20,510 nt of DNA from a virus. The notes under the pieces were generated by a model. That model was not told the origin of the DNA. It saw only the letters and a program-made list of their open reading frames with translations, and did no database searches. A program made the position numbers and the translations under genes. Below, piece after piece: positions 2,133 to 15,307 of this stretch. The stretch spans positions 1-20,510 of IMG/VR virus record IMGVR_UViG_3300025096_000171; one strand, given 5' to 3'. Position 1 is the first letter of the stretch, and each line of letters opens with the position of its first letter.

Positions 2133-4397
2133 CTATATCACTATCCCCAATACAGCAAGTTTATTAGCTGATATTTTTTTAGCAGCATCAATTTGAGGAA
2201 TATCTTTAGTATTTGCACCCCCTCCACCACCTACCTGATTAAGAGCCTCCATACCAGCCATCGCTAATTCACCATCATAAGCCATTGTTGTTGGAGGTTT
2301 GGGAGAAAGGGGTTTAATTCCTTCACCTATTGGTGGTTTAGAAGTTTTCATAATAGGACTACCTGCCTTAATATCAACAGAAGCAATCCCCATAATTCTA
2401 GGAGTTCCTGAAATACCAGAAATACCATTTATACCCACACCATCAGCACCATCAGCACCAGAAATACCATTTATACCCGCACCATCAGCACCAGAAATAC
2501 CAGAAATACCAGAAGCACCAATCGAACCCATTACACCATCTACCGCATCTTTACCAAACATTCCTTCAGCAACTTTAGATAATGGTGATCCTGCAAATGA
2601 TTCTTTTGCTTGACCCATCAATCCCTGTACTGCTGGCATCTGCATCATTTGTTGTACCATTGGATTATCCATCATATTCTGACCCATCCCTTTCATCATT
2701 GCTCGATGCGGAGAAGTTAGTTTTCCAGCAATTTGTCTTAACATACCTGCAGGACCACTCTTTATAGCATCACCGATTCCTAAATGAGGAGCAAACATAT
2801 TTGCTGCTTTACTAGCAATATTTAAAACACCACTGCCTCTTTGACCTTTCTGTCCAGAAGCGCCATCTATTCCAGAAACACCAGAAGCACCATCCATACC
2901 AGGAGCACCAGGATGACCCCCTCTTGGAGTGACTACTTTCATATTAGAATGATCTTTTTTATGTTTCGTATCTACCTTTTCCTGAGTACTTTCCTTATCA
3001 TCTTTCTTGCCAAAATTAAACAATCCCCCAAATAATCCTTTATCCTCCTCTTTTTCCTTTAACCCTTCAGATTTTTGTGGTTGAGATCCTCCCACTGGAC
3101 CACCTTCTTTAAAAGCAGGAACTCCTTCTTTTACTGATGGTTTATTCGTTGCACCCGCAGCAGCATTTAATGAAAGAAGAGCATCTACGCCATACTTTTG
3201 GACCGCTTCCTTACTTAAAACAAACTCACCATCAGTAAGCATTGCAGGAACTTTATCATCTCCTTTCTCACCCCTTACTTGTCCGCCTTCTTGAGATTCG
3301 ACAGGACCACCCTCTGCCATTCCTTGAGCAGGCTGGACATTCTGCAAATCTTTCTGAGTTTTTTCAGCAGAACCTTGTACAGGTTGGACCTGTGATTGTG
3401 ATTCGCCAGTATCTTCCGTAGGAATATCTTTACTAACTTCCTCTGACTGATTTTTTACATCACTAACTATATCTACTCCAACCTTTTTCGCATCTTTATC
3501 AACATCCTTTAAAGCATCATTAATACCAGGAACCCATCCAAATAATTGCTTGACTATATTCACAATCTTAGGAATAGACCATGCCAATAAAGCAACCACT
3601 CCTGCAATAAAAGTAACTCCTGGCCCTACAAATGCCATAATAGTAGCAACTAAAACAGGCCACCAATCTTTTAAAAATTTAAATAAAGAACCAACTTTCT
3701 TTTTATTTGCTGGATCAGTAAACCAGTCAAATAATTTCATCACTGCTCTTCCTAATATAATTCCAGTGAGAAATTCAATAATCTTACTAAAAATTCCCTT
3801 CACAGGTTCTATTATTTTTTCTCCTACCTTCTTAATTCCAGCAAATGCTTTACCACCAAGTTCTAATGCTTTCTCTTTAAATCCTCTTTTCTTTTGTTCC
3901 TTTTCATTACGGGCATCATCAGAAGCATCTTTTTGAAGACCTTGTTGATCCATCAAAGTTTGCTTAATAGAATCAACTCCACCAGCAATCTCCCGAACAA
4001 TACCTAACAAACCATCTAAAGGTGATGCCGGTTGCTCTGGTGCTTCTATATCCTTTAATAATTCTCCTCCTGGTTGACGAAGAGCAAGAGCACTAGCACC
4101 TGTTGTATCTGCTGGAACAGCCTTCTCTGCTCCACCTATCGCACTACCTTTTTTAAATGCAGCTGCAGATATAGTTGTCTTCTTTAATTTCATCGCAGGA
4201 CTAGGATTCTCTGCTTTCCTCGCTGCTCTTATTCTTTTTACTTCATCCTGTAATAGTGGGATTCTATAATCACTAGCGTCTAATGTATTAACAGCCTCCA
4301 TTAAAGCACTAAGATAATCCGTATCGGATTCAATATCCACCATCTCATATCCGAGATCTGTTAGTATCTTTATAGGACTAGTGCTAGTAACGGGCAT
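2133..4397 (-). CDS. Large virion structural protein with collagen-like repeats
   Basis: This 754-aa protein starts at ATG 4397, overlapping the end of gp51 by 14 bases. Visible in order: a polar N-terminus, VDSIKQTLMDQQ (141-152), a basic EQKKRG patch, IIEFLTGIILG (206-216), a hydrophobic stretch (about 245-290), a charged low-complexity linker, the motif DKVPAMLTDGEFVLS (381-395), and two collagen-like Gly-X-Y stretches (497-521 and 628-664). The LTxGEFV motif recurs in phage tail and virion proteins, and collagen-like repeats are common in phage fibres and appendages. Shared segments with the downstream gene suggest a duplicated pair. Assignment to the virion follows from gp51 and gp26 next door; the exact position is unknown. 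Confidence 0.8.
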   Translation of the reverse strand: MPVTSTSPIKILTDLGYEMVDIESDTDYLSALMEAVNTLDASDYRIPLLQDEVKRIRAARKAENPSPAMKLKKTTISAAAFKKGSAIGGAEKAVPADTTGASALALRQPGGELLKDIEAPEQPASPLDGLLGIVREIAGGVDSIKQTLMDQQGLQKDASDDARNEKEQKKRGFKEKALELGGKAFAGIKKVGEKIIEPVKGIFSKIIEFLTGIILGRAVMKLFDWFTDPANKKKVGSLFKFLKDWWPVLVATIMAFVGPGVTFIAGVVALLAWSIPKIVNIVKQLFGWVPGINDALKDVDKDAKKVGVDIVSDVKNQSEEVSKDIPTEDTGESQSQVQPVQGSAEKTQKDLQNVQPAQGMAEGGPVESQEGGQVRGEKGDDKVPAMLTDGEFVLSKEAVQKYGVDALLSLNAAAGATNKPSVKEGVPAFKEGGPVGGSQPQKSEGLKEKEEDKGLFGGLFNFGKKDDKESTQEKVDTKHKKDHSNMKVVTPRGGHPGAPGMDGASGVSGIDGASGQKGQRGSGVLNIASKAANMFAPHLGIGDAIKSGPAGMLRQIAGKLTSPHRAMMKGMGQNMMDNPMVQQMMQMPAVQGLMGQAKESFAGSPLSKVAEGMFGKDAVDGVMGSIGASGISGISGADGAGINGISGADGADGVGINGISGISGTPRIMGIASVDIKAGSPIMKTSKPPIGEGIKPLSPKPPTTMAYDGELAMAGMEALNQVGGGGGANTKDIPQIDAAKKISANKLAVLGIVI
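2416..2520 (-). repeat. Tandem DNA repeat encoding collagen-like Gly-X-Y
   Basis: A direct repeat with an offset of 42 bases (copies begin at 2416 and 2458, at least 21 identical bases each), followed by shorter 9-base units, encodes the G-I-S-G-A-D-G stretch of the 754-aa virion protein. Such repeats can expand or contract by recombination and change the length of the collagen-like rod. Confidence 0.7.
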
Positions 4398-14526: not shown

Positions 14527-14556
14527 CAAAAAAAGCAGGTTGTCTAGCAACCTGCT
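14527..14556 (-). terminator. Rho-independent terminator
   Basis: Read on the minus strand, AGCAGGTTG, loop CTAGA and CAACCTGCT make a perfect 9-bp stem (14534-14556) followed directly by a run of T (14527-14533). It ends the transcript of the riboswitch/YRG-peptide unit and separates it from the thyX group. Confidence 0.9.
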
Positions 14557-14588
14557 CCACAGTCTAATTCAAGTAAGATGTTCTCACT

Positions 14589-14780
14589 CTAAGCACAAAC
14601 AGTTTTAGTCTCTTCATGCTTAATTCCCCTGTAGACTTCTTCAAGTTGAACTCTCTGGCAAGTCCCAGTGGTAGGATGGAGGTTTGAATAAGAATTCCCA
14701 CGATAAGTGAGAGTCTTAGCAATTACAGCACCATCTCTGTGATCTGTGGTGTATGGTACACCGCGATAAGTTAAAGTCAT
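14589..14780 (-). CDS. Riboswitch-controlled YRG-repeat peptide (DUF4278-like)
   Basis: This 63-aa protein has three repeats around YRG (residues 5-7, 26-28, 50-52), the first two being LTYRGVPY and LTYRGNSY. Such LxYRGxxY motifs define the DUF4278 family of short cyanobacterial and cyanophage proteins of unknown function. The gene has AGGAG 7 bases before ATG 14780. It is alone between a promoter with two glutamine-type aptamers upstream and a terminator downstream, so it is a one-gene unit. Known small proteins under glutamine riboswitch control in cyanobacteria include inhibitors of glutamine synthetase, but this one shares no visible motif with them. A nitrogen-related regulatory role is inferred only. 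Two cysteines are present (41, 62). Confidence 0.85.
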   Translation of the reverse strand: MTLTYRGVPYTTDHRDGAVIAKTLTYRGNSYSNLHPTTGTCQRVQLEEVYRGIKHEETKTVCA

Positions 14781-14781
14781 T

Positions 14782-14814
14782 GGATTACTCCTAAAGTAGT
14801 TGGGTTTTTAATCC
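14782..14814 (-). promoter_or_regulatory. Possible expression platform covering the ribosome site
   Basis: On the minus strand GGATTA (14814-14809) can pair with TAATCC (14787-14782), which lies between the AGGAG site (14792-14788) and the ATG. ACTAC just 5' of the site can partly pair with GGAGT. Together they could hide the ribosome site of the YRG peptide. GGATTA begins with the last G of the second aptamer's closing stem, so the two folds compete by only one base pair. Inferred from sequence alone. Confidence 0.4.
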
Positions 14815-14858
14815 GTTCCTTTAGTCGGCTTTTGCGTCTCCCTTTCGGGGGATGAACG
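14814..14858 (-). ncRNA. Glutamine-type aptamer 2 (Downstream-peptide RNA-like), variant core
   Basis: The minus-strand RNA begins CGUUCAUCCCCCGAAAGGGA, continues GACGCAAAAGCCGA and closes with GGAACG. The outer stem is CGUUC/GAACG, the inner hairpin UCCC-CCGAAA-GGGA or a close alternative. Sequence and order match aptamer 1 except that the core reads CGCAAAAGCC, two bases shorter than CGCAAGUAAGCC. It resembles the glutamine-II riboswitch class but may bind differently or not at all. Confidence 0.7.
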
Positions 14859-14861
14859 ATC

Positions 14862-14905
14862 CGTTCCGAGTCGGCTTACTTGCGTCTCCTTTATAGAGAT
14901 GAACG
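14862..14905 (-). ncRNA. Glutamine-type aptamer 1 (Downstream-peptide RNA-like)
   Basis: The minus-strand RNA begins CGUUCAUCUC, has a loop, then GGAGACGCAAGUAAGCCGA and closes with GGAACG. The outer stem is CGUUC/GAACG and an inner stem UCUC/GAGA lies below it. Paired letters differ from aptamer 2 while pairing is kept. This matches the Downstream-peptide (glutamine-II) aptamer found in marine cyanobacteria and cyanophages upstream of short peptide genes, the class shown to bind L-glutamine. Only 3 bases separate it from aptamer 2. Confidence 0.85.
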
Positions 14906-14925
14906 ATGTGTTAATATTAACACAT
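14906..14925. repeat. 20-bp perfect palindrome over the -10 box
   Basis: ATGTGTTAATATTAACACAT is a perfect inverted repeat. It covers the -10 hexamer TAATAT (14914-14919) and the likely start site of the riboswitch promoter. It could be an operator for a dimeric repressor, or chance in AT-rich DNA. Confidence 0.7.
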
Positions 14926-14942
14926 ATACTCTATATAGTCAA
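14914..14942 (-). promoter_or_regulatory. Sigma-70-type promoter for the riboswitch unit
   Basis: TTGACT (-35, 14942-14937) and TAATAT (-10, 14919-14914) are separated by exactly 17 bases. Transcription should start near 14907, right at the 5' end of aptamer 1 (14905). This is an early-type promoter read by host polymerase. Confidence 0.8.
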
Positions 14943-14973: not shown

Positions 14974-15123
14974 TTATCTAAATCTTTCCGCAATATTTGC
15001 AGCATGATCATCCATTTTAATCAATTTATATCTCCAAACTCTTTCTAATAAACTAACAGAACGACCTAATTTCATCCTACAACAAATTTCTACTAACCTT
15101 AACCGATCATCTCTTTCAAGCAC
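14974..15123 (-). CDS. Small protein with GTG start, paralogue of the upstream gene
   Basis: GTG 15123 overlaps the upstream stop (GTGCTTGA) and opens a 49-aa frame: MLERDDRLRLVEICCRMKLG then RSVSLLERVWRYKLI and a short charged tail. It aligns with the upstream 63-aa protein: DRLRLVEICCR against YRLELTDICCR, and VSLLERVWRYKL against VSLDERIWMKKL. The two are therefore tandem paralogues, and matched reading frames argue that this short frame is coding. Unknown function; helical. Confidence 0.7.
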   Translation of the reverse strand: MLERDDRLRLVEICCRMKLGRSVSLLERVWRYKLIKMDDHAANIAERFR

Positions 15124-15307
15124 TATCTTCTACTTTATACGGACACAATAAAGACTCAGCAAGTTGCCGTGCTTGTAAATTAGCATCACATAATTTCTTC
15201 ATCCAAATTCTCTCATCCAAACTAACAGTATCATTGGCAATGATACGACAACAAATATCAGTAAGTTCTAATCTATACTTGGTACTTAACATTTTTTTAA
15301 AAGGCAT
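15116..15307 (-). CDS. Small cyanophage protein, upstream member of a paralogous pair
   Basis: The frame gives up to 63 residues, MPFKKMLSTKYRLELTDICC, then RIIANDTVSLDERIWMKKLC. ATG 15307 overlaps the purN end; ATG 15292 (MLSTKYRLEL), just after the purN stop, is an equally good start. Short proteins with KYRLxL...IxxRI...W..KL are common in T4-like cyanophages, unassigned. It is linked to the following paralogue by an 8-base overlap. Confidence 0.75.
   Translation of the reverse strand: MPFKKMLSTKYRLELTDICCRIIANDTVSLDERIWMKKLCDANLQARQLAESLLCPYKVEDSA

Follow-up and report, generated by a model that had tools for sequence, protein, structure and literature searches.

A probable nested, two-site glutamine-type riboswitch before a small peptide gene of a T4-like cyanophage

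The leader of a small peptide gene in a T4-like cyanophage is very probably a single nested, two-site glutamine-type riboswitch. The window, by which we mean the whole 20,510-nucleotide stretch that was analysed, is a 20.5-kb fragment of such a phage, in which the site is surrounded by thyX, a purN-type formyltransferase and cyanophage PHROGs. An earlier note on this DNA had described a self-contained phage transcription unit with a glutamine-riboswitch-type RNA before a small YRG peptide, which our analysis bears out, the peptide being a DUF4278 protein. The same note had read the RNA as two separate aptamers; covariation instead places the halves of each site in different units. The pairing register, a P3 helix shared between the sites and the P2 stems are all shown by this covariation in the sequences of relatives.

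The transcription unit

The unit occupies 14942-14527 on the minus strand and comprises a promoter, two CGTTC...GGAACG units, a Shine-Dalgarno (SD) sequence, a 63-codon ORF and a terminator, each located where it had been reported. The promoter is likewise as described, with a -35 element TTGACT (14937-14942) and, after a spacer of 17, a -10 element TAATAT (14914-14919). Promoter-like sites number 11 in the region vs 10.3 expected, so that a lone pattern is no better than chance; across relatives, a promoter score of at least 9/12 is reached in 68%, vs 6% in shuffles, and a TTGACT-17-TATAAT-like promoter stands at the same position in 205/216, with the -10 element mostly ending 7-10 nt before CGTTC. 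Given this spacing, we expect transcription to start at the outer P1 boundary, with a predicted position near 14907, the 5′ edge of the RNA element. A perfect DNA dyad, TGTGTTA-ATAT-TAACACA (14908-14925), is centred on the -10 element and is a possible operator; dyad arms of at least 6 occur there in 138/205 relatives. The arm sequences vary between phages (TGTGTTA, GGTATG, GTCATG and GGTCTA in the window and relatives L002-L137) with the symmetry kept, which possibly resembles an operator changing with its repressor. In addition, GTAN8TAC, the consensus applied to cyanophage NtcA sites (PMC3037559), is found upstream in 163/205 relatives (for example L005, L021 and L022), mostly 7-9 nt before the -35 element, vs 2.6% in shuffles; by sequence, it is absent upstream of the element in the window. 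An NtcA-like site would let a single phage unit respond to both 2-oxoglutarate and glutamine.

The SD sequence AGGAG (14788-14792) lies 7 nt before the AUG, and an SD-like motif is present in 162/163 unique leaders of relatives. The peptide gene (14589-14780, ATG at 14780, minus strand; phrog_5049) encodes 63 amino acids with three YRG motifs and matches DUF4278 (PF14105) at 38.3 bits (E 1.7e-9), above the Pfam gathering cut-off of 25.3. Among the matches listed, 230/240 relatives have a YRG gene after the element. A tblastn search of phage records with the peptide gave no match at 0.01, and AlphaFold predictions of the peptide, with pLDDT of 61 and 52, were too poor for a fold search. Most cyanobacterial glutamine riboswitches control DUF4278 genes, and the same domain occurs in IF17, a glutamine-synthetase inactivating factor that is encoded behind such riboswitches (PMC6316151). 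The N-terminal-type domain is dispensable for IF17 function (PMC6316151); in the phage peptide only this domain is recognised, with no recognisable C-terminal part of the kind that inhibits glutamine synthetase. Because of the DUF4278 domain, our guess is that the peptide might act on host glutamine synthetase. An intrinsic terminator (14532-14558), found also in relatives, closes the unit. Terminator-like sites number 4 in the region vs 0.9 expected, and a terminator lies within 110 nt in 87/223 relatives and in 0 shuffles. Elsewhere on the minus strand, two adjacent, overlapping small ORFs (14974-15123 and 15116-15307) are paralogues, both phrog_19028, and a 754-aa protein at 2133-4397 has collagen-like G-x-x repeats.

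Pairing across the two units

Relatives were collected by blastn, which matched part of the leader in 102 phage records, and by pattern scans of IMG/VR, which returned several hundred contigs or more; the figures given here are among the matches listed. In these matches, adjacent unit pairs form two populations. In true tandems (at least 64 pairs), each unit has both halves of loop E and its own P3 hairpin. In the cyanophage population, to which the window belongs, loop E is split: AAGUA is the only half present in unit 1, and GAA the only one in unit 2. After the final parse, the matches listed comprised 240 distinct split-loop-E elements of the cyanophage type; the window is not one of the 240, as a C.A mismatch in P2(2) failed the stem filter. 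True tandem Glutamine-I doublets (L353, L356 and L141 among others) were observed in SAR86-type, SAR92 and other marine non-cyanobacterial genomes, which supplied many of the 64 pairs, and in viral contigs, which supplied the remainder.

We number bases as in the solved aptamers (PMC6698751), in which 19 pairs with 41, and give the unit in brackets. In the window, unit 1 spans 14905-14862 and unit 2 spans 14858-14814, and the whole nested element covers 14905-14813, as located by a held-out covariance model with the architecture taken from relatives. The outer site would combine CGUUC of unit 1 (14901-14905) with GAACG of unit 2 (14818-14814, within GGAACG at 14814-14819) as outer P1, the P2(1) hairpin UCUC-UAUAAAG-GAGA (14885-14899), whose loop is short in the window, and a pair between C19(1), in the C17-G18-C19 triplet (14882-14884), and G41(2) at 14813. 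The two halves of its loop E, AAGUA from unit 1 and AAAGG from unit 2, would complete a Glutamine-I aptamer. The 5′ half and the 5′ strand of the shared P3 lie in J1, AAGUA-AGCCGACU-C (14868-14881), and the 3′ strand of P3 and the 3′ half of loop E in J2, AAA-AGCCGACU-AAA (14820-14833). This P3 would have no terminal loop and would run on into a second, circularly permuted site. There, GAACG of unit 1 (within GGAACG, 14862-14867) would pair with CGUUC of unit 2 (14858-14854) as inner P1, capped by a short loop that reads GAU in the window, alongside the P2(2) hairpin UC-C-CCC-GAAA-GGG-A-GA (14837-14852), which has one C.A mismatch and a GAAA tetraloop, and a pair between C19(2) at 14834 and G41(1) at 14861.

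Among the matches listed, 19(1):41(2) is complementary in 240/240 relatives and 19(2):41(1) in 233/240, whereas the local 19:41 pairs are complementary in 139/240 each and fail in 101/240. Where 41(1) is C, 19(2) is G in 29/30 and 19(1) in 5/30, and where 41(2) is C, 19(1) is G in 81/81 and 19(2) in 5/81, again among the matches listed. Because two of the scans fixed only base 41 of one unit and left base 19 free, these tallies can be read without selection on base 19. Across units, J1 and J2 oppose each other as AG-CCGA-C-X with Y-G-CCGA-CU, including two C.A oppositions, and X:Y is U:A, G:C or A:U in 202/202 of the matches listed; in some lineages J1 and J2 are fully paired (AGUCG/CGACU and AAACGAC/GUUGUUU). 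The J1 x J2 complementarity is reached by 0/2000 partner permutations, and true tandems have local P3 hairpins and no such cross-unit signal. Changes on both sides of a pair were counted in 37 distinct cores, with the P2 hairpins left out and P1 constant by construction. The nested structure has 42 both-side-changed cells, vs 13.0 (sd 2.6) after shuffling (0/500), and the tandem structure has 3, vs 5.6 after shuffling, with 488/500 reaching 3.

The P1 strands are almost invariant among relatives, and the P1 register therefore rests on two contigs together with the 19:41 and P3 pairings. The nested register expects a change in one P1 strand to be compensated in the other unit, and this prediction was tested by scanning for a changed C5 in the unit 1 P1 strand with the 3′ strands left free. 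Two contigs (L484 and L485) were returned, in both of which unit 1 has CGUUU, its own 3′ strand is still GGAACG, and the 3′ strand of unit 2 is AAGAAACG. The compensating change, G36 to A, is thus in unit 2 in 2/2 contigs and, in L484, lies 209 nt away, past an embedded ORF. For inner P1, the corresponding scan, directed at G36 of unit 1, found no variants. On a tree built on the downstream genes, which are short, independent pairs agree with the P3 closing pair X:Y in 11/11, with 19(2):41(1) in 6/6 and with 19(1):41(2) in 5/5, where 6 and 5 pairs are barely enough, or too few, for significance alone; local pairings go mostly in the opposite direction on this tree.

Predicted folding of the window RNA alone gives outer P1 a probability of 0.96-0.99 and local P1 0.01, and predicted folding in full leaders gives inner P1 0.73 vs 0.07 for outer P1. 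Such a mixture of predicted folds, in which inner P1 prevails in long leaders, and the interchangeable P1 strands of the two units would suit an RNA that switches register, being nested with glutamine and side-by-side, or an inner hairpin only, without it. We consider such switching unlikely, as covariation is seen in the nested register only and local P1 is predicted at low probability. The 19/41 bases of the window itself (C,G,C,G) are compatible with both the nested and the local registers, so its nested assignment rests on membership of the family.

Class, ligand and mode of action

The earlier note had placed the RNA in the Downstream-peptide (Glutamine-II) class and had proposed a search with the Rfam models for Downstream-peptide and glnA RNAs. 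Both models score below threshold, with glnA the closer: RF01739 (Glutamine-I, glnA) gives 28.7 and 25.1 bits on the two units (E 0.0003 and 0.003) against a gathering cut-off of 35 bits, and RF01704 (Glutamine-II/Downstream-peptide) gives 17.1 bits against 33. There are 0 matches in the window at the RF01739 gathering score, and no Rfam family reaches its own gathering score there. At 17.1 bits, the Downstream-peptide identity was dropped, and the RNA is instead Glutamine-I-like. The Glutamine-I layout of a three-way junction, loop E and a long-range 19:41 pair is found in the outer site across units and in neither unit alone, and the Glutamine-II pseudoknot, between the linker and the bases just 3′ of GGAACGG, is not seen in the element, where the linker strands pair across units and the tail x middle pairing belongs to a separate hairpin. 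The sub-threshold Rfam scores fit with each unit alone being half an aptamer. The units of relatives score 31-36 bits to RF01739, the units of one true tandem score 58-63 bits, and the minimum-energy z-scores of single units are near zero. The held-out covariance model from relatives matches a single 93-nt element, 14905-14813, with a score of 91.7 bits (E 1.5e-21). Nested and tandem covariance models score 91.7 and 93.4 bits on the window and do not separate the two folds, as the window follows the consensus.

Both sites contain the pocket bases C1, G2, G18, C39 and G40 together with the 19:41 pair, as judged from the solved structures (PMC6698751), and from these contact bases we infer that the ligand is glutamine. 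The inner site may be weaker, or non-binding, as its junction is without loop E and 19(2):41(1) is broken in 7/240 relatives among the matches listed. Glutamine binding would close outer P1 and so change how accessible the SD before the DUF4278 coding sequence is. Characterised glutamine riboswitches are ON switches (PMC6316151; PMC6698751), and on that model glutamine should stabilise P1, free the SD and probably turn this gene on; the phage would then produce the peptide at times of ample glutamine, and hence ample nitrogen, in the host. One possible route is competition between outer P1 (G40 and G41) and a hairpin of the next bases. A hairpin from G40 onward is found in 68/163 leaders, with tail x middle covariation (0/300 permutations), and is a plausible expression platform; the version in the window is weak (GG:CC), and UUAAA and UUUAG could form a hairpin at the SD instead. 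Another candidate SD switch, GGAUUA (14814-14809) with UAAUCC before the AUG, was rejected, being unsupported across relatives (243/300 permutations reach it). In constrained folding for ON and OFF states, the constraint modes gave near-equal values. It is doubtful that glutamine switches the gene off: closure of outer P1 could release a UCC before the SD for pairing with the GGA of the SD, but the characterised Glutamine-I and Glutamine-II switches activate (PMC6316151; PMC6698751).

The Rfam scores under cut-off would also fit a nested RNA with a ligand other than glutamine, or a purely structural or processing element. Riboswitch variants can change ligand. We nevertheless hold this to be quite improbable, as both sites retain the bases that contact glutamine in the solved structures (PMC6698751) and the regulated gene encodes DUF4278, with which cyanobacterial glutamine riboswitches are usually associated (PMC6316151). 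The least probable alternative is a pseudo-cooperative doublet of two ordinary side-by-side Glutamine-I aptamers, each folded locally; each unit does have its local RF01739 match, glutamine doublets are common (157 doublets; PMC9481103) and marine genomes, SAR86-type ones included, do have true local tandems, at the 58-63 bits per unit noted for one of them, but here local 19:41 pairing fails in 101/240 of the matches listed, the local register is without covariation, loop E is split where true tandems keep it intact in each unit, and P1 compensation is cross-unit in 2/2 cases.

Genes in the P2 loops and relation to known glutamine RNAs

The nested architecture also accommodates genes. The window has short loops in both P2 positions. 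Among the matches listed, 90/240 relatives have a long P2(2) loop; 89/90 of these long loops contain an ORF with its ATG within 16 nt of CGTTC, and in 77/90 the stop is exactly at GAC GCA AAA GCC GAC TGA or equivalent codons. A long P2(1) loop, nearly always with an ORF, occurs in 45/222 elements with a traceable 5′ end, and both loops are long in 17 elements, likewise among the matches listed. The P2 stems enclosing the ORFs covary (0/2000 permutations each), substitutions within the loop ORFs favour third codon positions, and the 3′ codons of these ORFs often form the aptamer junction. The loop ORFs correspond exactly to GenBank CDS coordinates in named phages including P-SSM4, P-SSM7, P-RSM6, P-TIM40, S-SSM7, S-SSM4, ACG-2014d, S-SKS1, DSL-LC02 and P-HM1. 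In P-SSM4, for example, they lie at 500-700 and 740-913 of contig L476 within an element at 490-921, and the outer P1 strands are more than 400 nt apart. We give even weight to the idea, and to its failing, that the nested riboswitch is a gene-housing scaffold, in which SD-less P2-loop ORFs would start after the P2 5′ strand and end in junction codons, translation and ligand folding would affect each other, and the glutamine level would be coupled to up to three peptides. Complete small ORFs in the P2 loops of P-SSM4, L484, L037 and others belong to phrog_504, phrog_6471 and phrog_13397. Separately, a strong manA RNA (141.7 bits; 1180-1374 of contig L474) follows the element in P-TIM40 at a distance of a few hundred bases.

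The phage element shares with Glutamine-I (RF01739) its P1 and P2, the AAGUA/GAA loop E, the 19:41 pair, the pocket bases and a position before a DUF4278 gene, but differs in having each site divided between the two units and a shared P3 that leads into a permuted site. With Glutamine-II (RF01704) it has in common the CGUUCA...CGC...GGAACGG core, a pocket near-identical in solved structures and a small-peptide target, whereas the P2/pseudoknot layout of that class is unsupported in the phage element. Tandem Glutamine-I doublets (Sherlock et al. 2022, PMC9481103) and glycine-type dual aptamers also place two sites before one gene; these are described as side-by-side with separate expression platforms, whereas the phage element exchanges strands and shares P3, which makes true cooperativity possible. 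gifB/IF17 and DUF4278 genes (Klahn 2018, via PMC6316151) show the same domain under glutamine-riboswitch control, with the difference that here the gene is a phage gene for a short protein with YRG repeats. The glnA element of S-CREM1 (PMC9964418) is the same element; it was given as one glnA RNA and its nested form was not described. The published match is 99 nt long, scores 44.0 bits to RF01739 and spans both units; for a 53-position model, this is what the outer site predicts. In our own Rfam runs on S-CREM1, only unit 2 was matched, at 33.5 bits, and none at the gathering score. Tandem glutamine aptamers are noted by Weinberg 2010 (PMC2864571) and treated as pseudo-cooperative side-by-side systems by Sherlock 2022 (PMC9481103), with no nested form in the text of either. 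Judged against the papers available, we found no description of a nested layout with genes in its loops, the surveys giving side-by-side doublets only.

If the nested reading is true, exchanged strands interlace two ligand sites around a common helix, and a short phage leader could sense one metabolite cooperatively. The side-by-side doublets of surveys would then need re-checking. The relatives with genes in their loops make the coupling of translation to aptamer folding testable in the cultured phages P-SSM4 and P-SSM7, with S-PM2 as a short form. In addition, a phage peptide family common in marine cyanophages would be tied to the nitrogen state of the host.
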